In this document: piece by piece, positions 7,932-49,464 of the stretch | Layout of the letters: each line of letters opens with the position of its first letter | Position numbering within the stretch: the first letter of the stretch is position 1 | From: a virus | Strand: one strand, 5' to 3' | IMG/VR virus record: IMGVR_UViG_3300042905_005483 | Coordinates: 37,536-101,535 of that record | Length of the DNA: 64,000 bases | Notes under the pieces: model-generated | Told to the model about the DNA's origin: nothing | Databases searched by the model: none | Seen by the model: the letters and a program-made list of their open reading frames with translations, nothing else | Translations under genes and position numbers: made by a program

Positions 7932-7932
7932 T

Positions 7933-10842: not shown

Positions 10843-10900
10843 TTTACCACCTTGCGGTGAGGTTACGGGCCGAAGCCCCGGGCAGTTACGCCCAATACCA

Positions 10901-22560: not shown

Positions 22561-23487
22561 TCAGACAAATTCAACCTTCGCCAGACCGTTCGTGTGACCG
22601 AACGAGCCACCCTGCGTGTTGTACGAGAAGTACTCAAGCATGTAAGCTTCACGACGGATATACATCGTGGTGGGCTCAAGCTCGTAGTTCTTTCCGATGA
22701 ACTTGGGGCTGGCGAACATGTACATTTCGTTGTCCTGAACGAGGTTCCGCTTGATCGTGACGATCCAGCGGCAGTTGAGGAAGTTCGTCTCCGCCCAACC
22801 GTTCTTGATGATGTCTTGCGAGAAATCACCACCCATCTCGTCGCGGCCAAACTTGAGGAGTTCCTTGATCGTGATGTTATTCACGAGGCAGGTTTCAACC
22901 TCAAAGTGACTCGGGGTCTTCGGCATTACCTTGAGCGCGTCAACCAGCGTTTCGCGGGTGATCCCGCCGCTGATCGATTCGTACTGCACGGTATCGGACA
23001 GCGTGTTAACGGCGTCCTTTGTGCCTACGGCGAGGTTAAACGCCGTGATGAACTTCGAGTCTTCTTCAGCGAGCATGTCCTTGATCATGTTGTCGCTGAG
23101 GACCTGACGGATGTCGATGACGTACGTACGCAGCTCGTCAACGTCCTTTACAGCGCGGGGCGACACGATCCGGTCAAACATGACGCGGTAGCGCGGGCCA
23201 CGGATGTAAAAGTTGCTCGGGAGCGTGGCGAACGGAATCGACACGGCTGCCGGGGAATCGGGCTCCTTGTCGACTACCTTCACCGGCTTGTCCGTATCAA
23301 CCTGACGATCGAGTTCGTCGTTGGTGATGGTTAGCGGCGGGATAATACGACGGTAGAAGCCGTCTTCACGCATCTTGGTGCGCGTGAAGTCGTTAACCGC
23401 ATCAATGGCCTGCTTCTGCATGCCGGGTGTATCAAGCTGCTCAAAAAGAGTCTCGTTGAGCAGTTGGATTTCTTGCTGAGTGGGCAT
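22561..23487 (-). CDS. Major capsid protein
   Basis: Start ATG 23487 (MPTQQEIQLL) is preceded by GGAGG at eight bases. The ATG five codons earlier is part of the CATGGAGG ribosome-site context. The 308-residue protein has the HK97-fold order: N-arm, helical spine region (DELRTYVIDIRQVLSDNMIKDML), mixed domain, and a C-terminal strand block (NCRWIVTIKRNLVQDNEMYM; GKNYELEPTTMYIRREAYM; GFGHTNG-like end). It follows a prohead protease, a scaffold-like gene and a decoration-like gene in the standard head order. The call is by fold pattern and synteny. The N-arm may be trimmed by the protease. Confidence 0.8.
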   Translation of the reverse strand: MPTQQEIQLLNETLFEQLDTPGMQKQAIDAVNDFTRTKMREDGFYRRIIPPLTITNDELDRQVDTDKPVKVVDKEPDSPAAVSIPFATLPSNFYIRGPRYRVMFDRIVSPRAVKDVDELRTYVIDIRQVLSDNMIKDMLAEEDSKFITAFNLAVGTKDAVNTLSDTVQYESISGGITRETLVDALKVMPKTPSHFEVETCLVNNITIKELLKFGRDEMGGDFSQDIIKNGWAETNFLNCRWIVTIKRNLVQDNEMYMFASPKFIGKNYELEPTTMYIRREAYMLEYFSYNTQGGSFGHTNGLAKVEFV

Positions 23488-23518
23488 CTTAAGAACCTCC
23501 ATGTTCTATTAGTTAGAG

Positions 23519-26024: not shown

Positions 26025-27503
26025 TCAAGTAATGTAATTTTGCAGTATGCAGTGGCCTACTGTCAACAAGTTATTTCCATATTTCTCAGTGACTGCCGTT
26101 AATGCAGCAATCTTATAGAGAGCGTAGTGCTTTGCAAGAGCATTTATCGCTGGCGTTGCCGATGCAGTCTTCTCTACAAGATGACGCGGCGTTGCACCGC
26201 GCAATGCCGCTGTATAAGCCTGTTTTTGCATACGATCTTCTAGTACGCTGTAAGTGCACGCCACTTTTTCGGCCCATAAACGCACGGCCGGCGGAGCTGC
26301 GTCTGCCGGAAAGTATACGTTATTTTCAAGTGTAGATGCAATATTTGGCTCGTTCAACAGCCGGTCAAAAATGCTAATTGTCGCAGATGATACCGCGTTC
26401 ACGAGCCCAAAATCAGCTTGTTTAATTGTTAACATCAAGAAGTCGCGCACGGGTAAGACAACCGCCGCGTCAGCCAAGCCGCGCAGCAACTCTGCAAGCT
26501 TAACGGAGCCGACAATCGGGGCGCTTTCAAAATCAATCGGCTGCTGAATGGCTGCGGAGAGACCGGTTGGGGTGTACGCGGCCGCTTTCGTAAGATCACG
26601 CAGGTTCAGGGTGCGCTCCGTGTCAGCGAGTAACTGTAAAGCCTGTAACTGCGCCTGCGCCCGCTTACTAGTAAATTCGTTGGTTAAGAGCGATACGGGG
26701 AGCGTTACACCCATTTGCTCAGCTAACTCTGCGCCAGACATACAGCCGGCACTTGAGGCAGCTTTTTGCAGTTGTCCGGAAACGTACGCGATGCGGTCAG
26801 CCGGACGAAACACATGCGAAATATCAAAGAACGAAGGGTCAGGGTTGTCGGCGTGCAGGATGTGACCGTCAGACATTACCCGACCGATGTTGTGTTTCAA
26901 ACCGCCAGCTTTGCAGTGACCGCCATTCTCAATCGAGTCGCAGTACTCGGCGCGGGTGCGGGCCATGTTGCCGCACGACGAACACTTGTCGAATGGAATT
27001 TTGCACGCCATCGAAACTGGAATCTCTTGGTCGTTCGACAGCTTCTCTAGTTCTTTGTCGGCCACTAAACCGCCGTTACGCTCTGCTGCTTCTTTGGTGC
27101 TATTTAAAGCGCATACCAGTTCGATTCGGCGCATTGGTTCGTTGTAAAACGACGCCTTTACAAGCCCGTAGCTTTTTGCCGGATTCTTGTTGGCGTGATC
27201 CCGATAGAACCGCGCAAACTTTTCAAACGTGTGGTGATACTTCTTGCAGCAGTCACGCGTGAAACCGTCTCCGTTGCGGTTCGGGCCGTAATCCTCGGTG
27301 GCGCCGATGGCGATAAGATGCACAGGCACCTCATCCGCGGCAAACTTGATGTTGGCCAAATGATCTACGAACTCAGCGCCGGCACGTTTAATCAGCGCTG
27401 ACCGATCAGACCCGATTATTCCGCGGCTAGATACTTTGATGAGCGCGGCTACGGGCTCGCTAAAGTTTTGTGCGTGCGGCTGAATTACTTTAATCATGCT
27501 CAT
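26025..27503 (-). CDS. Prohead maturation protease
   Basis: The N-terminal 180 residues match the herpesvirus-assemblin-like prohead proteases by eye. VHLIAIGATEDYG is followed by a His-containing turn (RDHANK, H103) and a Gly strand (SYGLVKAS), then IPVSMACK with S164 as likely nucleophile. The enzyme cleaves scaffold and capsid N-arms during head maturation. A four-cysteine cluster (C174, C177, C188, C197) directly after the Ser strand suggests a zinc-stabilised insert. The C-terminal 290 residues are helical and of unknown role; they may be a fused core protein. Starts at 27503 or 27497 are equally possible. It precedes the scaffold and capsid genes. Confidence 0.65.
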   Translation of the reverse strand: MSMIKVIQPHAQNFSEPVAALIKVSSRGIIGSDRSALIKRAGAEFVDHLANIKFAADEVPVHLIAIGATEDYGPNRNGDGFTRDCCKKYHHTFEKFARFYRDHANKNPAKSYGLVKASFYNEPMRRIELVCALNSTKEAAERNGGLVADKELEKLSNDQEIPVSMACKIPFDKCSSCGNMARTRAEYCDSIENGGHCKAGGLKHNIGRVMSDGHILHADNPDPSFFDISHVFRPADRIAYVSGQLQKAASSAGCMSGAELAEQMGVTLPVSLLTNEFTSKRAQAQLQALQLLADTERTLNLRDLTKAAAYTPTGLSAAIQQPIDFESAPIVGSVKLAELLRGLADAAVVLPVRDFLMLTIKQADFGLVNAVSSATISIFDRLLNEPNIASTLENNVYFPADAAPPAVRLWAEKVACTYSVLEDRMQKQAYTAALRGATPRHLVEKTASATPAINALAKHYALYKIAALTAVTEKYGNNLLTVGHCILQNYIT

Positions 27504-30413: not shown

Positions 30414-32783
30414 CTATACGTTAGCAGGCGCGTTCAAGTCGACGTCCTGCGATGACTCTTCGGGGTACGGCTCGATTGTTTTTTGCTTCAAGAACAGAAT
30501 AACGTCGCCGAGCATTTCAAAAGCATTGCGCAACGAGTCTTCTAGTTCGGGCATGTCCGACTTACCGTAACGATCGGCAAAGCGGTCACCGTGCCAGTAA
30601 AACATAAACAAAATACGGCCGATCTTATCCAGACCCTTTGTCAGGTCGCCCATGTACCGGTCGACAAGGCCGTCGTCTCGGACGGCGCGCAACATGGTGC
30701 CGATCATGGCCGTATCAAACACTTCACGCTGACCAGACTGGGCGGCGTCGAGTACCTGCTGCACGGCCTTTTGGTCGAACTGGGTGTTGGGGTTGTAAAC
30801 GCTGCGGTCTGTTTGGGTCGCGCTCATGCCCGGCACCGGAACGCCAACGTCAATGCCAAGCTGCGTTGGAATGTTCGTCCCCATAATGCTTTCGCCGCCC
30901 ATAACCGGTCCCGGATCAGCCGGAGCAGTCGGGGCGCCGTGAATCATCATCGGGCCGCCGTACGGGTCGGCATATTTGACGTGGCACGCGAATTTACGCT
31001 GTGCGGCTGCTTTGCTAAGAATCTCGCGGGCGGCTGCCTCGCGCAGGCCGTGCTGTTTTACCAGTGAGATCAGCGCGCTCTTTGTTGTAAATTGCTCGTT
31101 GTTAATCCAGACGTCAGAGCCGTTATGCCGGACTTCAAGGCTGCCGAGCTTGTTCATAAGCACAGACTGCACATCAAGCAGGTTGCCGGGCTGCAGGGCT
31201 GGCGGGTCGCTTTCGCCGCAGCCGCAGGTATCTTGCCCGTCTAATTCGTCGTCATCTTCGCCCTTGCTGACTTTTAACAGCTTGAAACTCTCTGGAACGA
31301 AAATGTCGCCCATGCTGGAACGCAAGCCAGCGCCCTTCTTACCGTTCAGATGGACGCGGACCCCGTCGCGGTACTTGTCGTAATTCAACGGGTCTGAGTA
31401 GCAGCACGGGCCAATGCTTCCACGCGGAGGAAATTTTGAATGATCTTCCATGTGGACCTCATAGGTCGTCGTCCCGTACGAATTTTCGCCGTGCTCTTTG
31501 AGCACGCGGAACGGTACGGACGTATCTCCGTTTTTGTTAAGCACCATGTACCGCGCATCCTTACCAACGCTGTTGGCGTCAGGGAGCGCGTTGTACCAAG
31601 AATCGAACTCGTCGCCTTCGACGTGCGCTAAACAAAAAATATGATCAGGTCGCGTATTCAGCCAGTCCGGTTTACCGTCAATGCGCACTACAGTGGCAAA
31701 GTCAGCGCGCTTGCTGGGACCCATTGGGTGGACGGCGATGTAGCACCGCTCAATCTCACCGGGCTTGACTAACACTTCGTAGAGACCGCTTTCGGTCGGG
31801 TTGAAGAACTTCTGCGAGACTTGAATGTTGTACGGAATGGACACAGCGTCGCGGTCCCGCTGGTCTTTAATCAGCACGCCGTCCCGAAGCAGTTTTTCTT
31901 GATCTTCTTCGGTGTATTCTGGCGGTAAAGCCTTTTGCACCGTGAGGTCGTACGTGATGACCTGCAACGTGCCCTGCGCTTCCGGCTTCTCGGCCTTTTT
32001 CGTCAGCACGCTGCTAATTTTGCTCAGCCGGTCACGTTCCTTGATTTCGGCAATCGCTTCTTTAACGATATTTAGCCCGTGAAACTCGTCGAGAGCCTCC
32101 GCGACTTGCGGAGCATGCTGACAGAGCTTCACAAGCATTTCGACCGTTTCGAGTCGCGCTTGCTTTAAAAACGTGCCCAGATGGAGAGACTTCCCAAGCT
32201 GTTCAAATGCCTCTTTGGTGTTCATCGTCGCCGTGCGGGCAAACGTCGGCATAACGGACGCCATCATTTCCTTGAGCGTCGGTTGCGCGGAACCAAACTT
32301 TGCGGGCGAACGGGAAAGCTGTGTAAAGTCAGGCTGCCGTTGGCCGAGAGACGTTAAATTTCGTTGAATACCGCTGCCCAGAATGCTCGGCTTGCGGTTG
32401 AGTAAATAATTAATCCAGTTTTCTTTGAGCGGCACGAACATGTCCTGATTTTTCAGATACAGCAGCTCGTGACCCTTAAGATCGCCATTTAAAAAGAAAA
32501 CCGGGGCGTACATCCAATTTGAGCCGACTTTAAACGCAAAAACGCCGACTGCTTTGGTATTTTCGCGGTTTCGGTCAAGAAGCTGGAAACCAACCTCGTG
32601 GTCAAGGAGTTTCGGCGCAGAATCGCGCAAATAAGCATGCGCCAGATTCGAAAAAGCCTGCTCGAACGATGTGTCGTCGCCGTGACCGCCGATCGCCGCT
32701 GTTTTCGTGTTTGTGCGGTCAAAACTACGCACAATTTTCAGCAGTTGGGGCACTGACGCCTTTTTTTCTCGTTTGTTGTACAC
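30414..32783 (-). CDS. Large virion protein of unknown function, about 790 aa
   Basis: I prefer GTG 32783 (MYNKREKK) because the CATGGAGG motif then serves as its ribosome site. ATG 32795 would place the site inside the gene. The N-terminal 130 residues form a compact domain (VGVFAFKVGSNWMYAPVFFL; KNQDMFVPLKENWINYLLN). A helical middle and a beta-rich segment with CGCGE follow, and the C-terminal 200 residues are helical with an acidic end. Size and position just upstream of the protease block would suit a portal, but I see no portal-like features, so I leave it unnamed. It follows the beta-prime C gene directly. Confidence 0.6.
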   Translation of the reverse strand: MYNKREKKASVPQLLKIVRSFDRTNTKTAAIGGHGDDTSFEQAFSNLAHAYLRDSAPKLLDHEVGFQLLDRNRENTKAVGVFAFKVGSNWMYAPVFFLNGDLKGHELLYLKNQDMFVPLKENWINYLLNRKPSILGSGIQRNLTSLGQRQPDFTQLSRSPAKFGSAQPTLKEMMASVMPTFARTATMNTKEAFEQLGKSLHLGTFLKQARLETVEMLVKLCQHAPQVAEALDEFHGLNIVKEAIAEIKERDRLSKISSVLTKKAEKPEAQGTLQVITYDLTVQKALPPEYTEEDQEKLLRDGVLIKDQRDRDAVSIPYNIQVSQKFFNPTESGLYEVLVKPGEIERCYIAVHPMGPSKRADFATVVRIDGKPDWLNTRPDHIFCLAHVEGDEFDSWYNALPDANSVGKDARYMVLNKNGDTSVPFRVLKEHGENSYGTTTYEVHMEDHSKFPPRGSIGPCCYSDPLNYDKYRDGVRVHLNGKKGAGLRSSMGDIFVPESFKLLKVSKGEDDDELDGQDTCGCGESDPPALQPGNLLDVQSVLMNKLGSLEVRHNGSDVWINNEQFTTKSALISLVKQHGLREAAAREILSKAAAQRKFACHVKYADPYGGPMMIHGAPTAPADPGPVMGGESIMGTNIPTQLGIDVGVPVPGMSATQTDRSVYNPNTQFDQKAVQQVLDAAQSGQREVFDTAMIGTMLRAVRDDGLVDRYMGDLTKGLDKIGRILFMFYWHGDRFADRYGKSDMPELEDSLRNAFEMLGDVILFLKQKTIEPYPEESSQDVDLNAPANV

Positions 32784-32821
32784 AGCCACCTCCATGCGGC
32801 AATTGGTCGAAACTCGGTACT

Positions 32822-34732
32822 CTAATTTACAGTGTTTTGGCTGTCTATCCTAGTTGTTGCCGGATTCCAGCCGCTTGTGGGGCCAGAAAGCCCGAATTGT
32901 TCGCCGCGGGCAAGGGCCGGCACATAACTACTGCCGCTTGTGTCGCTTTTTAGTCCCCGGTGCACGCTGTTTAAGAATCCGCGTTCTTGGTAGGAGCCAA
33001 GCATGCGCGTCATCCAGTCCGGGTCGTTGGAAATGTTCGCCATGCCGCGGACCATTTCTGGCTGGAACGGCGGCGGGTTTCTGTGGGCCTGCACGTTGTT
33101 AATTCCGTAGCGGCTCATATTGTCAATTACGCCCTTACCAATCTTTGTGCCGACCGAGTAGTGCAGCACCGGTTTTTCCAAGTAATGCCCCTTTAACGAA
33201 GAGGGCGCGCCAGAGACAGCGCCTTCTCTCGGCTGCCAGTCGCGCTCTAACGTCGAATACGGCACGACGTCATCTGGGGCGTAACTGCCGTATTCGTCAG
33301 TTAACCGCACATGATTGATCAGCCCGCGGGCCACCAGTTCGATGTTTCGTCGGTGCGGTGTAATGCCGCTATTTTTTAACACGTCACGCATGGCGCCCAC
33401 GAAGTACCGACGCCCCTCGCCGACGCCTTTATGCCGTACGACCTCAGACGGGTTGGGCATGCCGTCCGAAAGCACGTCGCCGGCTTCGATCGGGTCGCCC
33501 TTTTTGACAGACACGTTTTGATCGGCGCGGATGTAATGATCTTCTCCGTCAACGCGCACGTAAAAGCCGCCCTGAGCCGCGGGGCGTACTTCTTGAACCG
33601 CTCCGTCGCGCTGCGCGTGTGTCGCGCCGTCAGGATAAGTTTTGGGAACCTGCACCAGCGCGTTAATAGCTTTGAAGCCGCCAATGGCCCGCGCGCCACC
33701 AACACCGCCGGAGTGCTTTGACGACAATTGCGACTGCGACACCGGCTCGCTTAACGCTTGGGCGGCGGCAATACCGACATAGTCGCCAATTGGAGGAATG
33801 CGGCCCTTTTCGCGGTAGCCGACGTCCTTACCGAACACGCCGCCATCGCCGGGGCCGCCGACCAATGGACTACGAACAAGGATGTCCTTTACGCCCATCT
33901 GTTTCAGGTCTTTTAGGATTTTTGGCGTCAGCACTGTATTTCGTTTATAGGGGCCCGCACCGCGGGCAAGAAGCGCGCCCTCATTGTCGGCGTCATCGAC
34001 ATCGGTTGGGAACCCTCTGACTTCTAAAGCGTCCTTGTGCGCGTCGTCGTCTTCGTCGTCAGCCGTCACCAGTAATCGGTGCGCCATTTGCGTCAATTGC
34101 TTGCCGTAGAACCCGGCGTCAGCCGTGGCTGTCTTCGTGTCAATTAGACCCTTGCGGGCGCCGAAGGCGCCCGCGAAATATTCTGCGGGTGTAAGACCCC
34201 TACCATAGTTGTTAAGAACGGGGATCGGAATCGGCTCGTCCTTGTGGTCGACGTAAAGCATGTCGGCGCCAATAAGTGAGCTAAGACTGTACTTATTGCC
34301 GCGAATAGCCGATTTGACTTGGGTCGCGAGCGGGTTGTCTTGATCTTGCGCCTCGTTAAAAACTTCTTCAAGCAGCTTGTTTTGCGTGTTCGCCGCCAGC
34401 TGGAGGATTTTTAAGTTGCGGTCTTTTTCAGACAAGCCCGGCGTGGCCATAATGCCGCGAAGCTGCTTTCGCACTTCCAGCTTAGCCCGCTGACCGGCGA
34501 GCGTTTGTTTGATGTCTCGCAGGGAGAACGTCAAACCGCCTGTTGAGTAGGAGGCGTCTCGCCCAACATCGAACAGCTTCTTGGTAACTTCGCGGTACTG
34601 TTCGGGATAATTCTTGGCGAGCTCGGTCGATAACGAGCTCAGCGTCTTCTTATCCATGACGCGATTGTAGTCCCGCATCTCCTGCGGTAGCGCGTCGTTG
34701 ATCATGATTTGCCCGAGTGTCGTTTTCAGCAT
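32822..34732 (-). CDS. RNA polymerase beta-prime subunit, C-terminal half
   Basis: Conserved beta-prime regions are readable in order. TTLGQIMINDALP (4-16) and GGLTFSLRDIK (65-75) come first. The bridge-helix/trigger region (about 155-215) is GRGLTPAEYFAGAFGARKGL then TKTATADAGFYG. ILVRSPLV (284-291) follows, then VGIAAAQALSEP (319-330). The zinc-binding cysteines that normally follow RSPL are absent. It supplies the second half of the active-centre subunit that elsewhere is one chain. The split point is close to that between rpoC1 and rpoC2 of cyanobacteria and plastids. Two short genes separate it from the beta/beta-prime-N gene. AGGTG precedes ATG. Confidence 0.88.
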   Translation of the reverse strand: MLKTTLGQIMINDALPQEMRDYNRVMDKKTLSSLSTELAKNYPEQYREVTKKLFDVGRDASYSTGGLTFSLRDIKQTLAGQRAKLEVRKQLRGIMATPGLSEKDRNLKILQLAANTQNKLLEEVFNEAQDQDNPLATQVKSAIRGNKYSLSSLIGADMLYVDHKDEPIPIPVLNNYGRGLTPAEYFAGAFGARKGLIDTKTATADAGFYGKQLTQMAHRLLVTADDEDDDAHKDALEVRGFPTDVDDADNEGALLARGAGPYKRNTVLTPKILKDLKQMGVKDILVRSPLVGGPGDGGVFGKDVGYREKGRIPPIGDYVGIAAAQALSEPVSQSQLSSKHSGGVGGARAIGGFKAINALVQVPKTYPDGATHAQRDGAVQEVRPAAQGGFYVRVDGEDHYIRADQNVSVKKGDPIEAGDVLSDGMPNPSEVVRHKGVGEGRRYFVGAMRDVLKNSGITPHRRNIELVARGLINHVRLTDEYGSYAPDDVVPYSTLERDWQPREGAVSGAPSSLKGHYLEKPVLHYSVGTKIGKGVIDNMSRYGINNVQAHRNPPPFQPEMVRGMANISNDPDWMTRMLGSYQERGFLNSVHRGLKSDTSGSSYVPALARGEQFGLSGPTSGWNPATTRIDSQNTVN

Positions 34733-34739
34733 ACGGCAC

Positions 34740-34958
34740 CTATTTTTTAACGGGCGGAAATTCTGTTACTTTTGGCGGTGCTTCGTCCACGATGAGTCTG
34801 AGCACGGATGCAAAATCTTTATTGCCGATCGCCGAATACACGATGCTGTCTGCAAAGTGAATAGCTGCGAATATGGCGTTACCGGCATCGTCGCGTATTA
34901 CAACATTGTGCGCGGCTATCTTGTTAGGGATAAGCGCGTGTTGGGACTCAATGATCAT
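34740..34958 (-). CDS. Small unknown protein between RNAP genes, 72 aa
   Basis: It starts at ATG 34958, overlapping the end of the Pro-rich gene by 11 bases, and ends eight bases before the beta-prime C start. It is a mixed alpha/beta protein (HNVVIRDDAGNAIFAAIHFADSIVYS) with a Pro/Lys tail. A ribosome site is weak (CCGGAA). Position suggests co-expression with the polymerase; whether it binds it is unknown. Coding status is supported by tight packing and lack of overlap conflicts. Confidence 0.5.
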   Translation of the reverse strand: MIIESQHALIPNKIAAHNVVIRDDAGNAIFAAIHFADSIVYSAIGNKDFASVLRLIVDEAPPKVTEFPPVKK

Positions 34959-35679
34959 TATTCAGCAAATTCCGGCAAAGGGCGGCGATCGCACCTGCTT
35001 TTGTTTGCATCGGTGTCGGGCTGTTAACGTCAAGATTGTCGCCTTGTGCGGTGGGGCGGCCAATTCTCTGTGCGGTGTGCTCCGTCTGCCACCATTGCGC
35101 TGTTTTGGGCGCGCCGTCATCGGCTGGTGGCGCATTCGGCGGCATAGGGCCGCCGGGAGGTACAGGGCCGCCGGGGGGCATCGGACCGCCTGCTTGATCT
35201 TGCGCGGGAGGCGGGGGCGCCATGGGACCACCCGGTAACGCAGCTTCAGCAGGGGGAGCACCTGTTGTGCCCGGCGGCAAAACGAGAGATTCAGGCGCGA
35301 CTTCGACACCCATGGCATTCATAATTGCCGTGAGCTGCTGCTGCATGTTATACAGCCGATAATCGAGCATCTGCATCATCTGTTCTGGTTTTAGCTTCTG
35401 CTGCGGCTGCGCTGTCGGGGCTGGCGCTGCCGGAGGTTGCTGCATAGAAGCTGTCGGGTCCATCGGCGGGGCCATGCTGGCCATAGCCGCCGACGGGTCT
35501 CCACCTGCGGGAGGAGCTGCGCCCATCTGCTGTGACGGGTCCATTGGGCCCGCTGGAGGCACTGCGCCCATAGCCGCCGGGTCTTGTGGCGGCATCGCCA
35601 TTTGTCCGGGAACTACCGCGGACTTTTCAAATAGCTTTTGTTGCGCGAGTCGAAAGAGTTCAGGATTTACTGTGTACAT
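34948..35679 (-). CDS. Pro/Met/Gly-rich protein between RNAP genes
   Basis: A 243-residue low-complexity protein. The first 20 residues are helical (NPELFRLAQQKLFEKSA). Long PPAGP/PPGGP-type repeats flank a helical core (KPEQMMQMLDYRLYNMQQQL), and the C-terminus is mixed (HTAQRIGRPTAQ). GGAGGC lies six bases before ATG 35679. Such proteins often act as flexible linkers in phage virions. Encoded between the two polymerase genes, it could tether a packaged polymerase. That is speculation; no family is recognised. Confidence 0.55.
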   Translation of the reverse strand: MYTVNPELFRLAQQKLFEKSAVVPGQMAMPPQDPAAMGAVPPAGPMDPSQQMGAAPPAGGDPSAAMASMAPPMDPTASMQQPPAAPAPTAQPQQKLKPEQMMQMLDYRLYNMQQQLTAIMNAMGVEVAPESLVLPPGTTGAPPAEAALPGGPMAPPPPAQDQAGGPMPPGGPVPPGGPMPPNAPPADDGAPKTAQWWQTEHTAQRIGRPTAQGDNLDVNSPTPMQTKAGAIAALCRNLLNNDH

Positions 35680-35694
35680 TTTTTGCCTCCGAAA

Positions 35695-38600
35695 TCAGTC
35701 TTTATCTTCCACGATGTGTACCGGCGTGTCCACATCAATTTCGCCGGCACGATACGCGCGGACGGCGTCTTTCTTATTTCGGTAAACACGGGGCTTAGCT
35801 TTAGAGTTAATGCGACTCGACGCGAGATAGATGCCTGTGTGGTAATCCATCGTCGGCATGTAGTGCGCCTTGAAAGAAGCCGCCGCAAACAGATTTTTGC
35901 TGGGCAGCATTTTCTCAATTGCCTCTTTGGCCGCCTCTTCGGTACTGGGGACGTGATACTGCATCGCGTCACCGTCGAAGTCGGCGTTAAAGCCCTTGGT
36001 GATGACCGGATTGACCTCCATAACCTTGTTTTTCGTAAGCCGGGGGTAGAAGGCCATCATACCATATCGGTGTAAAACCGGGGCACGATTAATAACAATC
36101 GGCCGCGAATTCATTTGTTTATGCATCTCGTCGAACGCGATCTTGTTTTTGTCTTCAACGGACTGGAGCGCGGTCATCCGGGGCATACCGCGACGCACAA
36201 GGCCGCGGACAATAAACGGTTTGTAAATATCCCACGCCTTTTCTTCCGGCAGGGCAACCTCGTCCATGTCTAGGTCGGAGTTGGGGGTAATCACCGCCCG
36301 GCCGACAAGGTCTACCGTGCTTGACAGCAGTTTGCGCTGCATGGTGCCGAACTTGGGGCTGTCGCCGAATATCTTGCGTAAATAACCCCGGACGTTCTTT
36401 TCGACGTGTTTGGGGTTTACAGGGTCGCCGAGGCCCGTAACGCCTTTCATGGCGTCGTACAGGGCCAAGCGCTCGTTGCCTACGTTACCGAGCACGCCGG
36501 TAGCTTCTTTAAGCACTGAGTTAGATTCAAGCAGTTCTTTGTAGAGATAATTGGCGTCGTCGATCAGCTGCATCTTTTTGGAGCCGATTTGCGACACCGG
36601 CCGGAACATTGGCGGCAGGACCGGCATTTTGGTCAGCATCCAGTCTTTTGGATGAACACCCGTGGTTTCAGAGCCCTTCAAGAACCCGAGCCGGCGGACA
36701 GCGGCGTCACGCAGTGTTTTGCGCCCAGACTGGATATCCTGCCGAGCCTGCTCAATAGCTTTCGGTACGTTGATGTTTTCGAGCGCCGTACGAATAGCCG
36801 CCGGGCCTGTCTTGTCGTAAAGCTTTTCTTCGCCGGCCAGCACGCCGCGGAATTCCTTTTCTGTAAGGCCCAGCACGCGGCGAATGGGCTCTTCCATCAC
36901 AGGATTGGGCATCGGCTCGTGGAGCGTGACTTTTGACCATCGCGTGCCGTTGTGGCCGCCGGTGAGCTTTTCGTCAAACAGGCCGCCCTGCTTCGGCTTT
37001 AAGTTACCTTTCCAGTCCACGGTCTCAGTGTTCTGGATTTCTCGGTCGCCGGCCAGCTCATCGATGTCTTTATCGGTGAGGGCCATGATATTAACCTTGG
37101 AGCCGGACTTTACCGTGTTAACGCCAGCGCCACGCAGTTGACTGACAAACTTCTCGTAGACGTGCGGGACCTTGGGCAGCGGCGGGTCATAGCCAGCCAT
37201 GAACTGCGCCCAATACTCCGGATTAGCTTGGCCGCGCACCATCTTGGCGTCGCGGATAACTTTTCCGGCACCGTGGCTTAACAGCGCGCCAAGATCGAGC
37301 ATGCCGACGCGCTTGGCGCCTTCGGAACCGCCCTTGGCCGGCGTGCCTTCAGCTGTGTAACTGCCCGTAGACCGCCCCTGACCCTTTGATTCAGCCGTAT
37401 GGTGGAGCTTCATGTAGAACCGGGAGCCCGTCAGCACGCCCCGAATCTTTCTACCAGTCTCCGGGTCTGTCAAGTCTTCTGTGTCTGACAGCCCGTGCTT
37501 GGCTAACTCTCCCTGCGCAAAGTCAACGAGGTCTGTGTCCTGATCGAAATCTTTGACCTTATATGCTTTACCCGTCTTGGCTGAAATCTTACCCAGCGCA
37601 GCCTCGATAACCTGAGACGGATTTACGCGGCTGATTAAACCCAGCGGGCTAACCAGCACCTCCATCGCACGCCCGTCGGCGTCTTGGGGCATCTGATGAT
37701 CCGGGACTATCTCAGCCACAACGCCTTTATCGCCAAATCGCCCAGAAAGCTTGTCGCCGACTTCCATCGGCGATTGCGCTTTTACTACTACGTTCACACC
37801 GTTTTTTGTTACGCCAACGTCCGTGACTACGCCGGGAGAATGATGGTCCCACGTAATCGTCTCGTTAGCGAAGCTGCCAGCGCGGCCTCGGTGTACTTTG
37901 CCGTACACCGCTTCGCGCTTCTTGGCCATTAACACCAGCGGGTCGCCGAAATTGACGACTTGGCCTTTTTTCACTGCGCCGTTGTCGTCAAAGCGCTCCA
38001 GCATCTTTTTGTCGTAAACGCCCGGGAACAAACTCACAAACGCCCGCTTGCCGACATGCGTGTTGTCGTCAAACTCGACTTCGTTCTGATACATGTGCTC
38101 GCTGGTCAGGCGCTTGGCGGCTGATTCGCTGATAACCACGCCGTCTTCATAGTTACGGCCGCGGAAAGGGACATACCCGACGCGAAGATTTAAACCCAGC
38201 GCCGTCGTGCCGTTTTTATCGGTAAAGTTCGACGTGGCGAGTAATTGCCCGGGCGTAATCTGATCTCCGGGCTGCACAGTCGGCCTTTGCGTCCACAACG
38301 TCTTGCGATTAAACGGCATGTCGTTGTAAAGCTCGATAGACTGTCGTTTGCCGTCTGCGCCTTTAATGATGATCTCGTCGGGGGTCACTTTCTCGACAAT
38401 TCCGGGCGCGGAGGCTTTTACGGCACCAAGATGCTCGCCCATCTTGTCTTCATAAGAAATATTCGGGTCGTCGCTCGTTGCTGACTGCACAAACGGCGAT
38501 TCAGCGTTTACTAGGGGCAGTGCCTGCGTAAACATGCGGCTACCCATGATGACGCGCTGGCCCTTAGACATCGACTTCATCGGCACCATGTTTGAAAGCA

Positions 38601-40098
38601 TGGAGAGTGAGTTGTCCATGCTCGGCAACATGAACTGCGCGTCTTTCTTAGGCACGTATTTAATTTTGCCGTTCTGCAAAGCGGCTACCATGGGCAGGTC
38701 GCTGCGCTCTTCGCCCGGAAATACCAGCGGCGTGTCGGCTAGTTCTTGCGGCGTCTTGTAGACCGTGTCGCCGGTGTGAACGTTTTTTACCGGCACCACG
38801 AACGTATGAATATTTGTCGGGCTTTTTCGGGCACCGGCGGCAAACCGCATATCGACGCCAACTTTGCCGGACTCTGGCGTACGCAAATAGTCGATAAAAC
38901 CGAAATGACTCGGTTGCACGCTGCGGGACTCGGCGGGAATGGCGTCGATCGAACCGATGCCGCCTTCGCCTAGGCGCGTTACACGAGTCTGGTGATCAAA
39001 GATTTCTGCCGGATTGATTTCTTCCAGCGACGAACCAAGACCCGAGCCAATCAGGGCGGCGTTAATGCCTTTGTTGAACACGCCCGACGGAATGTGATCC
39101 AGCGACTTTTTCGCGGTTGCTTTCCAGAGTAACTGCCGTAATCCAGTTTTGTCTTTTACGAAACGCTCAGCGATTAAATCTTCGGGGCCATAAACCTGCT
39201 GGAACGCCATGCTGTCGCGGTCGTCGGAATCAGCCTCCTTCCGATTCACCGCGATCAGCTTTTTCGTTATGTCCATGATCGTTTCCGGAGTCAGCTGCTT
39301 GTACGGCTTTCCGAGCGTTCTTTTTGTCACTTCCTCGTCGAACTCCGTCTTCGCGAACTCCTGCGCTATCTCCTTGATCTTTCCCAGCTCGTCGATCCCC
39401 GGTTTCGGCTTGTACACTAGGCGCTGGTACAACTTGTCGATCGTCCCCGCGTCCCCCTTCTCCATGTTCGCGGCTGTGATCTCGTTCCCCCACGCTGACC
39501 GGATGTCGTTGTCCCGCATCCCCATCGCTTTTAACAACGGCATGACCGGAATCTGCGCTTGGCCGATCTGTATCTTGAACACCCCCGTCTTTGGGTCCAG
39601 ATAATAGCGGTGCGACCGGCCTTTGCCCGGTAACGCATTCACGTGGGCTTCCAGCTCCCCGTTTTCTTTCTCGCGTGTGAAGATACCGGGACGCAGCCTC
39701 AGTTGGTGCGCCAGCGTGTACTCCACCCCCCGATTGACGAACGTACCGGCGTCCGTTAGGTACGGCACGTTGGCAATCGTAGCGGCCCTCGTCGCAACAG
39801 GCTTCTGTGTCTTGTTGTCCAGCAGAGTCCATGTGCCCCTCATTTTTCTGTGCAGCGAGCCGTGCGTCAAAATAGCGTTCTTCTGGTCGGCTTTAGTAAA
39901 CCGCTCAGGCCCGTCGTAAGTGACGTCGGATAGTCGCAGCGTATAAAGATCGTTTTGCATCGGCTCGATACTTTGAGCGCTCTGCAAAGCGTTGTTAAAA
40001 ATATTGTCTCGAAGTGCCGGTACGTCGCCGAATGCCCGGTACTGCGCAGGTTGTGGTGCCGGCGGCTGTAAACCGGATGACGGCAAAATGCTCGGCAT
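35695..40098 (-). CDS. RNA polymerase beta / beta-prime N-terminal fusion protein
   Basis: Residues 1 to about 1005 are beta: YLTDAGTFVNRGVEYTLAHQ, GRNYEDGVVISESAA, SPMEVGDKLSGRFGDKGVVA, EVLVSPLGLISRVNPSQVIE, then the Arg-Ser-Thr-Gly motif (GRSTGSYT). From about 1017 the frame continues as beta-prime: TVDWKGNLKPKQGGLFDEKL, VLPPMFRPVSQ, VDLVGRAVITP, VINRAPVLHRYG, and the catalytic magnesium loop NADFDGD at 1371-1377. It ends some 90 residues later. The remaining half of beta-prime is at 32822..34732. The first zinc cluster of beta-prime is absent. The gene sits among structural genes, so it may be packaged in the virion. Catalytic residues are intact. Confidence 0.92.
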   Translation of the reverse strand: MPSILPSSGLQPPAPQPAQYRAFGDVPALRDNIFNNALQSAQSIEPMQNDLYTLRLSDVTYDGPERFTKADQKNAILTHGSLHRKMRGTWTLLDNKTQKPVATRAATIANVPYLTDAGTFVNRGVEYTLAHQLRLRPGIFTREKENGELEAHVNALPGKGRSHRYYLDPKTGVFKIQIGQAQIPVMPLLKAMGMRDNDIRSAWGNEITAANMEKGDAGTIDKLYQRLVYKPKPGIDELGKIKEIAQEFAKTEFDEEVTKRTLGKPYKQLTPETIMDITKKLIAVNRKEADSDDRDSMAFQQVYGPEDLIAERFVKDKTGLRQLLWKATAKKSLDHIPSGVFNKGINAALIGSGLGSSLEEINPAEIFDHQTRVTRLGEGGIGSIDAIPAESRSVQPSHFGFIDYLRTPESGKVGVDMRFAAGARKSPTNIHTFVVPVKNVHTGDTVYKTPQELADTPLVFPGEERSDLPMVAALQNGKIKYVPKKDAQFMLPSMDNSLSMLSNMVPMKSMSKGQRVIMGSRMFTQALPLVNAESPFVQSATSDDPNISYEDKMGEHLGAVKASAPGIVEKVTPDEIIIKGADGKRQSIELYNDMPFNRKTLWTQRPTVQPGDQITPGQLLATSNFTDKNGTTALGLNLRVGYVPFRGRNYEDGVVISESAAKRLTSEHMYQNEVEFDDNTHVGKRAFVSLFPGVYDKKMLERFDDNGAVKKGQVVNFGDPLVLMAKKREAVYGKVHRGRAGSFANETITWDHHSPGVVTDVGVTKNGVNVVVKAQSPMEVGDKLSGRFGDKGVVAEIVPDHQMPQDADGRAMEVLVSPLGLISRVNPSQVIEAALGKISAKTGKAYKVKDFDQDTDLVDFAQGELAKHGLSDTEDLTDPETGRKIRGVLTGSRFYMKLHHTAESKGQGRSTGSYTAEGTPAKGGSEGAKRVGMLDLGALLSHGAGKVIRDAKMVRGQANPEYWAQFMAGYDPPLPKVPHVYEKFVSQLRGAGVNTVKSGSKVNIMALTDKDIDELAGDREIQNTETVDWKGNLKPKQGGLFDEKLTGGHNGTRWSKVTLHEPMPNPVMEEPIRRVLGLTEKEFRGVLAGEEKLYDKTGPAAIRTALENINVPKAIEQARQDIQSGRKTLRDAAVRRLGFLKGSETTGVHPKDWMLTKMPVLPPMFRPVSQIGSKKMQLIDDANYLYKELLESNSVLKEATGVLGNVGNERLALYDAMKGVTGLGDPVNPKHVEKNVRGYLRKIFGDSPKFGTMQRKLLSSTVDLVGRAVITPNSDLDMDEVALPEEKAWDIYKPFIVRGLVRRGMPRMTALQSVEDKNKIAFDEMHKQMNSRPIVINRAPVLHRYGMMAFYPRLTKNKVMEVNPVITKGFNADFDGDAMQYHVPSTEEAAKEAIEKMLPSKNLFAAASFKAHYMPTMDYHTGIYLASSRINSKAKPRVYRNKKDAVRAYRAGEIDVDTPVHIVEDKD

Positions 40099-42634: not shown

Positions 42635-43669
42635 CTAGATATTGCCGAGCGCGCCAAAATGCTTCAGTTTCTTCGGCGGGAAACCGTTAACGCCAGAAAA
42701 CGCAATGGCTGTCCGGTTGCTAATGTCCGACCACCTCGCCCAGAACGAGCCCACAGGAATACTGAACCGCGTGCCGCGAATCTTCCGCGGGCCGTTATTC
42801 CAATCACCCCAGCTGTTTTGAACTAATACGAGCGGCCCGCCGTAAATTTTCTTGGTGTCGTCACGGTCGTCGACGCCGAGATAGGCGAGCGCGTGCGCCC
42901 AACCACGCGGTGTTCTCTTTGATACGCCGTTTTCATCGCGCTCTTCCGAGAACGACTCGCCGCCGCATGACGAAATGCAGTAACCGTTTGTTAATAGGTC
43001 GCGCACTTCCTCAAAGCTACTGGCTTCGGTCGCGGTGCGGATAAGGTGCTCCCGCCCAATTTTAAGCCACGCTTCAGGCGGTGTTCTTGACCCGTACAAG
43101 CCGGCATTGCGCGAACTGTATGTGGTGAAGTCGACGTCGATCTCGTCGTATTTCTTACGCAGCCACAAGCCGCTTTCTTTTAACACGACATTAGCCGCGG
43201 CCTGACAGCTCCAGCCGTCGCCCCCATGGCGGCGCCAATTGTAAATGGCTTCTGTGCTGAGCACGCCATTTACGCGCGCAGCTTCGCTTACTTCAGGCGC
43301 GCCTTCAAGCTTTCCGGTTACGTCGTCAGGAATGCCGCTGTTGATCTCGCAGCACATGGTGCCGAGGCCCGCATTGCGCGTCGACCAACTTACGCAGTCA
43401 CCACGGCCTTGAGCACCGCCGGGAAGAGAGTCTGGATAGAGTTCAAGAATCTCCAGCACGGGCAAACTTAATTTGCCCGCGCCAGATTCTTGCAAACCGT
43501 ACTGCGTGCAAGCGTCGGCCCCATTTGGGGTACCGCCCGACGACTTAATGTAGTCGCGCAGGGCGGTACCCGCTTCTGGGTCAGCGTAGGCGCCGACAAA
43601 ACCAGTCTCATAGGCTTTTACAACGTCAAAGACGCTGGAAAACATTACTTCGCGGTCATTTGCAGCCAT
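42635..43669 (-). CDS. Papain-like cysteine protease (C1 fold), 344 aa
   Basis: The papain catalytic layout is visible: GRGDCVSWSTRN with Cys92, GWAHALAYLGVDD with His259, and VLVQNSWGDWNNG with Asn285 in the classical NSWG context. An oxyanion Gln is not obvious. The N-terminal 90 residues could be a propeptide or adaptor. There is no signal peptide. Phages rarely encode C1 peptidases. A virion or host-protein-processing role is possible. AGGTG is upstream. Family assignment is from the triad order and NSWG motif. Confidence 0.7.
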   Translation of the reverse strand: MAANDREVMFSSVFDVVKAYETGFVGAYADPEAGTALRDYIKSSGGTPNGADACTQYGLQESGAGKLSLPVLEILELYPDSLPGGAQGRGDCVSWSTRNAGLGTMCCEINSGIPDDVTGKLEGAPEVSEAARVNGVLSTEAIYNWRRHGGDGWSCQAAANVVLKESGLWLRKKYDEIDVDFTTYSSRNAGLYGSRTPPEAWLKIGREHLIRTATEASSFEEVRDLLTNGYCISSCGGESFSEERDENGVSKRTPRGWAHALAYLGVDDRDDTKKIYGGPLVLVQNSWGDWNNGPRKIRGTRFSIPVGSFWARWSDISNRTAIAFSGVNGFPPKKLKHFGALGNI

Positions 43670-45007: not shown

Positions 45008-45826
45008 TCACGTTTGGGGTATCAACAGATAAGGGCGGCCATTAATTGTAATAGTGCCGTTCACTTCTATAACAGCGTCTTTTATCGCGCTATAGGGCGC
45101 CTTCCGCGAACCATATAATTTAACAATTTCTTCGACGTCTCCGGCTTGCGGCGCGGTGACGTTCGGGTCGTAATACGGCGCCATGAGGTTGCCCCAACTT
45201 AAATGCGGTAAACCAAGCGCGTGACCGAGTTCATGACAAATAACCGCGATTGCCATGTTAAACGACCAATCTTCTGCTTCGTCGAACATTTGGTCGAGCT
45301 GAATGGTCTCGTGCACACCGCACGGCAGTTCACTCCACGCTAATGTGCCGCCAGAACCGTCTAGTTGGTGTTTCTTACCGCTGCCTGAACGCGCATAAAT
45401 GTTAGCTTTGTTGGGGGCGTCTACGCGGGTAGGCTCAAGGTCGCATACGGCAGCCCACTGAGAAAAAGCGATGTCATACGCCTGCGCAATCTGCTCGTTG
45501 GATAAACCCGGAAGCGCGATGTCGTGATGGTACGTGATTTTCTTCATCGGCCATTTGCACACGCTGCTCGGGTCCGTCAGATTAAAGTCTGGAAGGCCGC
45601 AGCGGCGTTTCTTGATGCGGTGCGCCGTAACCTCATTCACGCAACCGCACTCATTAATGCCGTTAAATTTCTGGTACGCGCACACGGCGTCTTTTAAAGC
45701 TTTGCCGCGGATGCTTTTCACTTGCGCCCACGTCTTGCCGCCGAAATAGCCGTAGTCGTACAAAAATTTCAATACTTCATTTGTCGGCAGTACGTCTTTC
45801 GTACGGCCTGTTGTTTTTTTCGCCAT
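45008..45826 (-). CDS. Matrixin metalloprotease with cysteine switch
   Basis: ATG 45826 (MAKKTTGRTK) has AGGTG upstream. Residues 10-70 resemble a peptidoglycan-binding-type helical prodomain (LKFLYDYGYFGG...LKDAVCAYQKFNG). RRCGLPDF (74-81) is nearly identical to the PRCGxPD cysteine switch of matrix metalloproteases, whose Cys blocks the catalytic zinc until removed. The catalytic domain has HELGHALGLPH (His198, Glu199, His202, His208) and a Met-turn (LMAP, Met215). The fold is M10 matrixin with its prodomain. A C-terminal beta tail (EVNGTITINGRPYLLI) may anchor it. The substrate is unknown; virion processing or host surface are options. Confidence 0.85.
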   Translation of the reverse strand: MAKKTTGRTKDVLPTNEVLKFLYDYGYFGGKTWAQVKSIRGKALKDAVCAYQKFNGINECGCVNEVTAHRIKKRRCGLPDFNLTDPSSVCKWPMKKITYHHDIALPGLSNEQIAQAYDIAFSQWAAVCDLEPTRVDAPNKANIYARSGSGKKHQLDGSGGTLAWSELPCGVHETIQLDQMFDEAEDWSFNMAIAVICHELGHALGLPHLSWGNLMAPYYDPNVTAPQAGDVEEIVKLYGSRKAPYSAIKDAVIEVNGTITINGRPYLLIPQT

Positions 45827-45833
45827 GTGGCAC

Positions 45834-46256
45834 CTATACGGTTTTGGCGACCGCAACAAACTCTTGCGCTGTTTCTGCGGTCATTTTGTTAGATATTGTT
45901 CGCAACGCGCCGAGTAAAGGATTAGGCGCCGTTGCAGAGATATTTCGATTGCGGCAGTATTCAACCCACGCCTTATCCACCCGGCGGCGTAATACAATCG
46001 TCCGGCGCAGCGGCAATTTGTCGAGCCCGGTTAACGCCGCCACAATAACGTCGTCCGTCTGCTTGTTGCGCTCTTGGCAGAATCGGACGACTTGAATAAT
46101 TACCGAAATCAACATCAGAATTAAAAACGGATCAATGCCGATGTTGTTTTCACCCATTTCATCGGCAATCGATTTTTCTAATTCGTTTACGACAGCGGAC
46201 AAAGCCGGAGAGCTGTTAATTGCCTGCTCCAGTTTGTCCATGTCAATTGATTTCAT
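45834..46256 (-). CDS. Small membrane protein, 140 aa
   Basis: The N-terminal 40 residues are acidic and helical. One transmembrane segment follows (IDPFLILMLISVIIQVVRF), then a basic helical domain (LPLRRTIVLRRRVDKAWVEY). It is translationally coupled (ATGA) to the gene upstream, which is also a membrane protein. The two probably work together. The family is unknown to me. Confidence 0.55.
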   Translation of the reverse strand: MKSIDMDKLEQAINSSPALSAVVNELEKSIADEMGENNIGIDPFLILMLISVIIQVVRFCQERNKQTDDVIVAALTGLDKLPLRRTIVLRRRVDKAWVEYCRNRNISATAPNPLLGALRTISNKMTAETAQEFVAVAKTV

Positions 46257-47629: not shown

Positions 47630-47895
47630 GTAGCGATAGCCTTAAACAAACGCCAAAAAAATCCGCCGAGTACAGCCACCCACGCCACAATCCCACTGAT
47701 AGATAAAAAAACAATCATCGGTACTGTTACGAGCATCGAATACCACTTTGTTTTGTCGATTTTCTGCCGCCAGAGCAGCCACATCAAATGCAACGCGTTC
47801 GGCGGCTTGTTCGGTATTTCAGGAAGCGCCGGAATATCGGTTGGCGTCTTTTTAGTGAGGTCGGTCCATAACTTTTTGAGATTGCTGCCTAACAT
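47626..47895 (-). CDS. Small membrane protein, 89 aa
   Basis: ATG 47895 has GGAGG six bases upstream and overlaps the preceding stop (TGATG). The N-terminal half is Pro/Lys-rich (KTPTDIPALPEIPNKPPN). The second half has a hydrophobic segment (YSMLVTVPMIVFLSISGIVA) and a second short one (WVAVLGGFFWRLF). It may be a holin accessory or an envelope protein. Function unknown. Confidence 0.55.
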   Translation of the reverse strand: MLGSNLKKLWTDLTKKTPTDIPALPEIPNKPPNALHLMWLLWRQKIDKTKWYSMLVTVPMIVFLSISGIVAWVAVLGGFFWRLFKAIAT

Positions 47896-49280
47896 CACGC
47901 ACCTCCAGCGCCAAGAATGTCGTTACCGTGTCGCGAAATCACGCGGTCGAGCATGGGCATCTGCTGGTCGCGGTTGTGGAACGCATCAAGCGCCCGCTGC
48001 TGGCGATACATCGGATCAAGATGCGCCCGGTACATCTCGGCGTTCTGCCTCGTGCGCAGAATAAAGTCTCCGCGGTTCTTGACCTCTAGCAACTGATTCT
48101 GGATGTTTTTAAACAGCGGCAAGTTGTGATCGTACGTAATCGGAATGCGCCGGTTAAACTGATTGAGCATCTCCTGAACGTACACGCTGCGATAAGGCGA
48201 GTTGGTGTTGAAGTAAGCGGCTTTTACTCTCGGATCAATGCTGCGCGGGTCGGCGTGCAGGCGGAAGTTCGTAGGTTTATGTGTCACACCCTTGAACTTG
48301 GGCTTATTGTCGTCGATCACCCAGTCTTGCGGAGACTGTGACATCAATTGCCGCAAAATGCGCGCCTTGTGCTCGTAGCGCTTGTTATCAGAGTGCTCTT
48401 TGGCCTCGCGCAGCATTTTCAACACGGGGCTGGCCGCTTTTTCGATCTTCTTTACTTTTTCGTAGTAGGTGGGGTCTTCGAGCAAATGATCTTTGGCAAT
48501 TTCTTTGGCGATTTGGTCATTTGTGACGTGTTCGTGTTCATGTTTAGCTCCTTCAGCTAAGGCAGACGAAGAAAAATCCCGATCGGGTAAATTGTCGGCT
48601 TTTCCGCCCGGTAAAAGGTCGTTTTGTCCCGAGCGGGCAACTTTTTGTCCCGAACGGGAAAGTTCTGCGGCTTTTAGCTCGCCGCGGCCTTGGGCTGTGT
48701 CAAATTTGCTGACAGTGTTGTTGCCCATCACGTGCTTGCGCCGAGCGGCAATAGTGATGTGGAACGGGTGGTTTCCTTTCGGTAGCGGGGTCAGGCCGTA
48801 GCTTTTGCGCAAAGCCGCGAGGGTCGGGCTGGCTACCTGCACAACCCAGACTTTGCTGACGCCTTCGATGCTGGTAACGGGAATCTCTTTCACTGGGCCG
48901 AGGCCGTAGTAAAACATGTGCCCGCGCTCGTTAATCTTGTCGGCGCCGATTGACTGCACCTCGTCGGCAGTCATTACGGAAATATGGGCGTTCAGGACGC
49001 CCGCGTCGACATTGGGCACGTTCATGGTGCCGGCAAGCGGAAGTTCAGCGCCCGGCGCAACAAGGGCGTCGTACACGCCACGCACAAAGGCGTTCGGGAC
49101 AGAAAGAAGCAGCCACCCGCTTTTGGCTAAATACAGGCGGCCGGCGAGCGGGTGATTGACGCTCGCTTGCTTATCAGAACGGCTCAGCCAGCCTAGCGCA
49201 TTACCCTGCGCATACGCGGCGCATTTCTTTAGGCTGGTCGGCTCCCAGCCCGACGGGTCAAGTACGGAGAGGCCGTCCAT
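47895..49280 (-). CDS. 2H phosphoesterase-like / DUF5661-like fusion protein
   Basis: ATG 49280 (MDGLSVLDPS) follows the previous stop by ten bases. Two H-x-[ST] motifs characteristic of 2H phosphoesterases are visible: AHISVM (His99) and FHITIA (His174), with KVWVVQV strands between. This fold cleaves 2',3'-cyclic or cyclic oligonucleotide bonds; phage Acb1 (T4 57B) uses it against CBASS signals. Residues 228-280 (KADNLPDRDF...IAKEIAKDHLLEDPTYYEKV) match the DUF5661 pattern. A tandem ARSGQ/SRSGQ linker precedes it. The rest is helical. An anti-CBASS or RNA-repair role is inferred; the motifs are directly seen. Confidence 0.65.
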   Translation of the reverse strand: MDGLSVLDPSGWEPTSLKKCAAYAQGNALGWLSRSDKQASVNHPLAGRLYLAKSGWLLLSVPNAFVRGVYDALVAPGAELPLAGTMNVPNVDAGVLNAHISVMTADEVQSIGADKINERGHMFYYGLGPVKEIPVTSIEGVSKVWVVQVASPTLAALRKSYGLTPLPKGNHPFHITIAARRKHVMGNNTVSKFDTAQGRGELKAAELSRSGQKVARSGQNDLLPGGKADNLPDRDFSSSALAEGAKHEHEHVTNDQIAKEIAKDHLLEDPTYYEKVKKIEKAASPVLKMLREAKEHSDNKRYEHKARILRQLMSQSPQDWVIDDNKPKFKGVTHKPTNFRLHADPRSIDPRVKAAYFNTNSPYRSVYVQEMLNQFNRRIPITYDHNLPLFKNIQNQLLEVKNRGDFILRTRQNAEMYRAHLDPMYRQQRALDAFHNRDQQMPMLDRVISRHGNDILGAGGA

Positions 49281-49290
49281 GGCGGCACCA

Positions 49291-49464
49291 CTACTTTGTC
49301 TGAGCGGATACAACTACCGTGTTCGTGGCGCGTGTATCGGCGTGACTGGAATTGGCCGAAGCAGCCGCCGCCAAAAAAAGGAGCCCCGCGCAAATTGCCG
49401 CGAAGACCCAAGACAAAAGACTTAGTTGATTACGGTAATGTTGGGGTATCGCGATCGCTTTCAT
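49291..49464 (-). CDS. Small signal-anchored protein, 57 aa
   Basis: ATG 49464 has GGGAG four bases upstream; an ATG ten codons earlier lacks one. After a short polar N-terminus, a hydrophobic stretch follows (LSLLSWVFAAICAGLLFLAA) that could be a signal peptide with cleavage after ASA. The remaining residues end in VVVSAQTK, shared with the 44221 gene. It overlaps the holin-like gene by 35 bases, a nesting typical of lysis genes such as spanin pairs. No lipobox cysteine is seen. Confidence 0.5.
   Translation of the reverse strand: MKAIAIPQHYRNQLSLLSWVFAAICAGLLFLAAAASANSSHADTRATNTVVVSAQTK

Follow-up and report, generated by a model that had tools for sequence, protein, structure and literature searches.

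We analysed a 64,000-nucleotide stretch of viral DNA (hereafter the window), which spans positions 37,536 to 101,535 of the 101,535-base IMG/VR virus record IMGVR_UViG_3300042905_005483, and focused on two minus-strand genes that encode a multisubunit RNA polymerase (RNAP). The larger gene encodes a complete beta subunit that continues in the same frame into the N-terminal half of beta' (the beta-beta'N fusion), and the smaller one encodes the C-terminal half of beta' (beta'C). Two open reading frames (ORFs) lie between them. The locus contains the following features, in window coordinates:

35695..40098, minus strand: beta-beta'N fusion subunit, 1467 aa (intact ORF; Pfam, PDB matches, alignment)
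37726..37752, minus strand: beta double-psi barrel lysines K783 and K791, equivalent to E. coli K1065 and K1073 (alignment)
35968..35988, minus strand: NADFDGD catalytic motif of the beta' double-psi barrel, residues 1371-1377 (alignment to E. coli D460/D462/D464)
34948..35679, minus strand: 243-aa proline-rich ORF between the RNAP genes, kept in relatives
34740..34958, minus strand: 72-aa ORF between the RNAP genes (phmmer matches in four close relatives)
32822..34732, minus strand: beta'C subunit, 636 aa (intact ORF; Pfam, PDB match, AlphaFold/Foldseek)
34082..34189, minus strand: bridge helix, beta'C residues 182-217, a 36-residue helix in the model (AlphaFold secondary structure; alignment, GARKGL..TATADAGF)
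33704..33778, minus strand: trigger-loop region GIAAAQALSEPVSQSQLSSKHSGG (alignment)

The complete beta corresponds to residues ~1-1000 of the 1467-aa protein and the N-terminal half of beta' to residues ~1001-1467. Pfam detected the Rpb2_2, Rpb2_3 and Rpb2_6 (7e-51) domains, followed by Rpb1_1 (1.9e-8, under its curated cut-off) and Rpb1_2 (1.9e-26), and PDB chains of beta and beta' matched residues 94-995 (5e-72) and 1071-1462 (3e-49), respectively. In the 636-aa protein we found Rpb1_5 (4.9e-25) and a PDB match to M. smegmatis beta' from residue 664 onward (2.6e-40). Aligned to E. coli, the fusion comprises beta 1-1342, a practically zero linker and beta' from ~21 to ~568, while beta'C begins at ~569 and reaches the C-terminus; in Salmonella phage Arash, a cultured relative, beta'C begins at ~552. 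The original prediction, made from the sequence before any search, had read the first gene as a complete beta running in frame into beta' past NADFDGD, and had placed the bridge helix and trigger region in the second gene. Profile, PDB and alignment evidence agree on the former, including the identity of the first ~1,000 residues as beta, and alignment and AlphaFold bear out the latter. It had also located the break near the rpoC1/rpoC2 split of cyanobacteria; the two breaks are indeed near each other, but their positions differ, the phage one lying ~20-40 residues N-terminal, before the TTxGR block, and the cyanobacterial one after it.

The window phage retains the catalytic features of a bacterial-type enzyme, namely the DxDxD motif, the pair of beta lysines, the bridge helix and the histidine of the trigger loop. 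The DxDxD triad of the fusion protein is D1373/D1375/D1377, and the catalytic aspartates were found in 48 out of 48 phages of the tree set. In the trigger loop, the equivalent of E. coli H936 is retained, while M932 is replaced by L and R933 by S. AlphaFold modelled fusion residues 525-1467 as one chain with a predicted local distance difference test score (pLDDT) of 87, and the top 50 PDB matches of that model were bacterial-type beta; the beta'C model (pLDDT 85) matched bacterial beta' in Foldseek (1.8e-28). Both canonical beta' zinc clusters are missing from the window phage, as had been predicted, but only one of the two absences is family-wide. The Zn1 cysteines (C70/72/85/88) fall within a deletion in every phage examined, whereas the Zn2 positions (C814/888/895/898), which read E,G,F,D in the window phage, are CCCC in Arash, Vibrio phage D69 and most relatives. 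The loss of Zn2 is therefore specific to the window subclade, a late event that also occurred separately in a few whole-fusion forms. Gaps at two bacteria in the zinc-site alignment are trimming artefacts of sequence extraction.

Scans of IMG/VR recovered more than 100 relatives, and our counts are taken from 76 non-redundant sequences bearing the active-site motif. In 46 of the 76, one ORF encoded beta-beta'N without beta'C (3 of these are truncated on the beta side by the end of the contig), and in another 24 one ORF spanned both beta and beta' (one truncated by a contig end), with whole beta-beta' ORFs of ~2,050-2,170 aa when intein-free; the remaining sequences were cut, recoded or broken. 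The split-fusion plan was also found in cultured phages, namely Arash and Vibrio phages D69, D148 and D181 (the D69 and D181 loci were inspected, and the D148 layout comes from the match table alone). The layout is a conserved trait of a phage family and not unique to the window phage. The original prediction had proposed that this could be a separate lineage among the multisubunit RNAPs of phages, which is supported, but the combination is the norm in its family and no one-off. The 243-aa ORF between the two genes had phmmer matches at the equivalent position in nine relatives (weakest 4e-9).

Identical copies of the 1467-aa protein occur in two further contigs, one of them 205 kb long, and a third contig holds an unbroken fusion protein of 75% identity. 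The layout is not an artefact, because identical or similar intact ORFs recur in these contigs and in the relatives. The unfamiliar layout is all that speaks for an assembly error, a frameshift or a decayed gene, an explanation of negligible probability that is ruled out by intact ORFs in independent contigs, in dozens of relatives and in complete cultured genomes, and by the retained catalytic residues.

Some relatives carry further interruptions. In-frame insertions resembling inteins (Cys/Ser at the start, HN/GN at the end before Ser/Thr) occur at numerous distinct positions in both beta and beta', and the carriers include L007/L009 (3300025532_000328, 3300025606_000003), L073, L104, L305, L314 and L325; some adjoin the bridge helix, the trigger loop or the active site, and L305 and L325 have several each. 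In L351 (3300022227_000020, 4794-10868) a whole beta-beta' fusion contains 11 in-frame TGA codons and ends in TAA, so the phage or its host would read TGA as an amino acid. Vibrio phage D181 (L012) has group I introns at 7440-7720 and 3643-3850 (Rfam RF00028, 101 and 103 bits), one of which holds a homing endonuclease gene within the beta-coding portion of the fusion gene. The beta'C ORFs of L084, L100, L297 and L301 are 900-1200 aa long, with an extra stretch of ~300-600 aa. Finally, the odd split of L181 was explained by a change of frame together with a lost stretch and that of L178 by a possible secondary split, and both were used for tree position only.

We built maximum-likelihood trees of 65 and 47 taxa with 17 bacteria and no archaeal outgroup. 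In both, the phage RNAPs formed one group outside the 17 bacteria, and the split forms made one clade (92.3/96; 97.1/98), which holds the window phage together with Arash and D69 and lies near, but apart from, the whole-fusion forms. The approximately unbiased (AU) test rejected trees with Arash-type splits outside this clade (p=0.045), as well as those with window-type splits outside (p=2e-5). Phage beta' and beta of a different arrangement grouped beside the split and whole-fusion family (70/87): Cobetia phage Carin-5 has beta and beta' as separate genes, and in Rhizobium phage RHph_Y65 and Vibrio phages Va2 and 1.031.O we found beta' alone. Relatives with a complete beta-beta' ORF suggest that the fusion came first and the split later. 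The parsimonious order would be a single beta-beta' fusion in the ancestor, followed by a single re-fission in beta' just past the catalytic barrel, since this takes two events and not three, irrespective of whether the whole-fusion forms constitute a clade or only a grade.

The reverse order, in which an already split beta' was inherited from cyanobacteria or from a source common to phiKZ-type phages and beta was fused on later, seems rather improbable to us. The break lies close to rpoC1/rpoC2, a review raises a cyanobacterial origin for the phiKZ-type splits (PMC7598289), and the phage stem attaches beside cyanobacteria/WOR-1 (100/100). However, given such a long stem (0.74-1.32) and trees lacking an archaeal outgroup, the attachment point is unreliable, and the break falls on the other side of TTxGR. 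The whole-fusion relatives are unbroken, which leaves the three-event history as the longer one. A closely related cellular donor was rejected as well: the best 80 genome matches were ordinary bacterial rpoC with 28-32% identity from many phyla, and no prophage was apparent among them.

The phage also encodes a sigma factor, just outside the window:

Record positions 35399-36208, minus strand, 1.3 kb left of the window: sigma-70-type factor, 270 aa (TIGR02937, Pfam, phmmer, HHalign)

This ORF was found through the TIGR02937 search, and was missed by PF04542 and by phmmer with Arash Gp196. It contains Sigma70_r3 (40.3 bits) and Sigma70_r4 (24.2 bits), both over cut-off, and is orthologous to Arash Gp10 (phmmer 7e-18, HHalign 98.7%), with the same neighbouring gene order, gp12-gp13-gp14, as in Arash. 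The related genomes G002 and G004 also encode a Gp10-type sigma. The window-phage sigma had no match to Arash Gp196, a second sigma that is encoded in Arash (L010, 6462-7499) and D69 (L011, 1807-2583) and was not found in the window-phage lineage; it is a possible candidate for a later-stage sigma. A single Rpb2_6 match was detected in the window-phage genome and one in the complete Arash genome, hence a single core enzyme in each.

An alpha subunit (PF01193) was detected in none of 12 phage genomes, while 13 of 14 control genomes were positive. This would also suit a hybrid enzyme in which the phage beta-beta' borrows alpha, and perhaps sigma, from the host, and a conserved region near the beta C-terminus, GAKRVGMLDLGALLSHGA, is partly retained in the alignment. 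We regard such a hybrid as quite unlikely. A dedicated phage sigma exists, and its Arash orthologue is reported in virions; the non-virion RNAPs of phiKZ and AR9 function without alpha (PMC7598289); and the beta-beta' fusion would plausibly make alpha-guided assembly unnecessary.

Evidence for packaging comes from Arash, for which a 2023 study annotated the two RNAP subunits, as beta and beta', and detected them in virions (PMC10585845). Virion mass spectrometry, proposed in the original prediction as a check, is in effect available for this homologue, and the protein is present. In particular, liquid chromatography-mass spectrometry assigned 3516 spectra and 128 peptides to Gp206, the fusion homologue and the highest of all proteins, 1210 spectra and 40 peptides to Gp216, the beta'C homologue, and 467 spectra and 24 peptides to Gp10, as compared with 1333 spectra for the capsid and 877 for the portal; Gp196 is missing from the virion protein table. 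Expressed per residue, these counts become ~2.3 for Gp206, ~2.0 for Gp216 and ~2.0 for Gp10 (1.5 for the portal and 4.3 for the capsid), a near-equimolar ratio that fits a packaged holoenzyme.

We consider it likely that the window phage has an alpha-less, sigma-dependent RNAP that travels in the virion to serve early transcription and arose by fusion and then fission; the infecting virus probably supplies its transcription machinery itself. The identity of the sequences, their arrangement and conservation and the orthology of sigma are established, and virion presence is published for the Arash homologues; for the window phage itself we infer catalysis, packaging, holoenzyme assembly, injection and the early-gene role, and likewise that fusion preceded fission. 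In this Arash-like large tailed phage (a kind with genomes of ~160-225 kb), the two genes would encode the core catalytic subunits of a two-barrel RNAP of bacterial type. Both double-psi barrels lie on the fusion protein, so the active centre would form inside one chain, and beta'C would contribute the bridge helix, the trigger loop and what remains of the clamp and jaw. The beta-beta' joining may replace the assembly step that is directed by alpha in bacterial cells, and the Gp10-orthologous sigma would give promoter recognition. Core and sigma would be packaged together, enter with the DNA and transcribe the early phage genes, and the core presumably stays in use later in infection. A stronger version, to which we give slightly less than an even chance, is that a self-contained alpha-free holoenzyme runs the infection, with a single capsid-shipped core and one sigma, perhaps re-programmed by a second cell-made sigma (Arash); its plan would derive from fusion and then a new cut in beta', both plans now coexisting.

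Several observations weigh against this interpretation. The window-phage RNAP is only ~32% identical to that of Arash, from which the virion evidence comes, and R933 is lost from its trigger loop. Region 2 was unrecognisable in the window-phage sigma, the stretches upstream of genes yielded no common promoter motif (k-mer enrichment gave only tRNA-like words), and the host could supply alpha. Concerning the order of events, the AU test did not reject the whole-fusion forms as one clade (p=0.43), and the deep nodes among these forms are weak. As for the Arash proteome, spectral counts are compressed, and the report lists 116 virion proteins with clear non-structural enzymes among them and some odd rows (e.g. 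100% coverage with 2 peptides), so carry-over is possible; its authors themselves allow for carry-over of an abundant protein (PMC10585845).

These last points would fit an RNAP made during infection for middle and late genes and present in Arash virions only as abundant carry-over, and the RNAP genes adjoin the head genes, within the structural region. We judge this explanation unlikely. The fusion homologue exceeds even capsid and portal in the Arash spectra, beta'C and Gp10 accompany it at near-equal length-normalised counts while Gp196 is missing, and the Gp10-type sigma gene sits within a baseplate-type gene cluster in 3 out of 3 window-clade genomes checked.

The features of the structural region next to the RNAP genes are:

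30414..32795, minus strand: 793-aa homologue of Arash Gp218, directly downstream of beta'C (phmmer 9e-13)
26025..27503, minus strand: 492-aa homologue of Arash virion protein Gp222 (phmmer 7.4e-35)
22561..23502, minus strand: major capsid protein (MCP), homologue of Arash Gp226 (phmmer of the Arash MCP against the gene of the near-identical 205-kb contig, 2e-33)

Gp218 is itself an Arash virion protein, with 1149 spectra (PMC10585845). TerL, MCP and portal are common to the window phage and Arash, as judged on the window side from the near-identical 205-kb contig. We also identified, elsewhere in the window, an actin homologue of 344 aa (50664-51698, minus strand; Pfam Volactin, a family named from archaea, 5.5e-61), a matrixin-type (Peptidase_M10) metalloprotease with a weak peptidoglycan-binding match (45008-45859, minus strand; 1.7e-19), a glycosyltransferase domain of the PLOD (collagen lysyl hydroxylase) type (57309-57977, plus strand; 4e-23), a glycosyl transferase group 1 gene (54909-55853) and a 2H phosphoesterase (2H-SAK) fused to DUF5661 (47895-49313, minus strand). 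Another 344-aa protein (42635-43669, minus strand) had no Pfam match and shows by eye a papain-like motif order (GDCVSWS ... GWAHALAYLG ... QNSWGDWN).

Among known systems, the window phage is most similar in layout to Arash (Gp206 and Gp216, OQ632216), D69, D148 and D181. With Arash and D69 it also has in common the Gp10-type sigma, the absence of a detected alpha and homologous TerL and MCP, and with Arash the portal and one core RNAP. The fusion is ~32% and beta'C ~24% identical to the Arash proteins; Arash and D69 differ in their retained Zn2 cysteines and second sigma of the Gp196 type, and D148 and D181 in an interrupted beta part (shown to be a group I intron for D181). Carin-5, Y65, Va2 and 1.031.O differ in having beta' whole and not fused to beta.

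Multisubunit phage RNAPs of the phiKZ/AR9 and mReC types, and the subunit annotation of Arash, were already known. The mReC enzymes (Weinheimer and Aylward 2020) are likewise alignable to cellular beta and beta' and branch deeply outside bacteria; their beta and beta' were described as subunits, and neither fusion nor split was reported for that clade (PMC7481178). They go with a PF07068-type capsid (PMC7481178), which had no match in the window record (G000), G001, Arash, D69 or other relatives, and Pfam found none in the window-phage MCP; this gp23-type capsid scored above cut-off in Y65 and Carin-5 and weakly in Va2 and 1.031.O. The TerL of the window phage matched PF05876 only and not the mReC-type PF03237, which is weak in Arash. 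We do not claim mReC membership for the window phage, as both capsid and TerL differ.

The window RNAP is distinct from the phiKZ/AR9 type, to which its sequence similarity is marginal (65 aa to AR9). The phiKZ/AR9 RNAPs are without alpha or omega, one version is packaged in virions, and beta' is split just past the catalytic barrel (PMC7598289). The expectation that these phages split both subunits differently was right for beta, which in phiKZ/AR9 is also split and not joined to beta', but not for the break in beta'. The shared beta' split therefore does not distinguish the window phage; what sets it apart is that beta is intact and fused to beta'. Moreover, phiKZ/AR9 have two RNAP sets and no recognisable sigma (PMC7598289), whereas the window phage has one set and a sigma. 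The crAss-like phi14:2 and P23-45 gp96/gp64 RNAPs resemble the window enzyme in carrying both barrels in one chain, and theirs are virion RNAPs, but they are far more divergent and of the single-subunit class (PMC10770324), while the window RNAP is close to cellular multisubunit RNAP. The passages of the Arash paper covered here do not discuss the beta-beta'N fusion (PMC10585845). In the literature covered, mostly open-access, we found no account of this fusion, of whole beta-beta' fusions in such phages or of a conserved virion sigma.

A cellular counterpart to the joining is Helicobacter RpoBC, in which the beta C-terminus is joined to the beta' N-terminus, alpha is present and beta' is unsplit. 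The original prediction had drawn this comparison, which stands as an analogy by description; the whole beta-beta' phage relatives seem to be the nearer parallel.

Cellular RNAPs hardly vary in their subunit layout. Here, a cell-like sequence comes with whole fusion, with partial fusion and a new break, with no detectable alpha and without Zn1, and therefore bears on the roles of alpha and of subunit boundaries. Since the family has cultured members (Arash, Vibrio D69), a sigma-dependent virion RNAP is directly testable, unlike the sigma-less phiKZ type. For dating the origins of phage RNAPs, an alignable clade that includes whole-fusion members is also more suitable material than the phiKZ-type enzymes. 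If our interpretation is true, the coexisting whole-fusion and split plans would be natural experiments in RNAP assembly.

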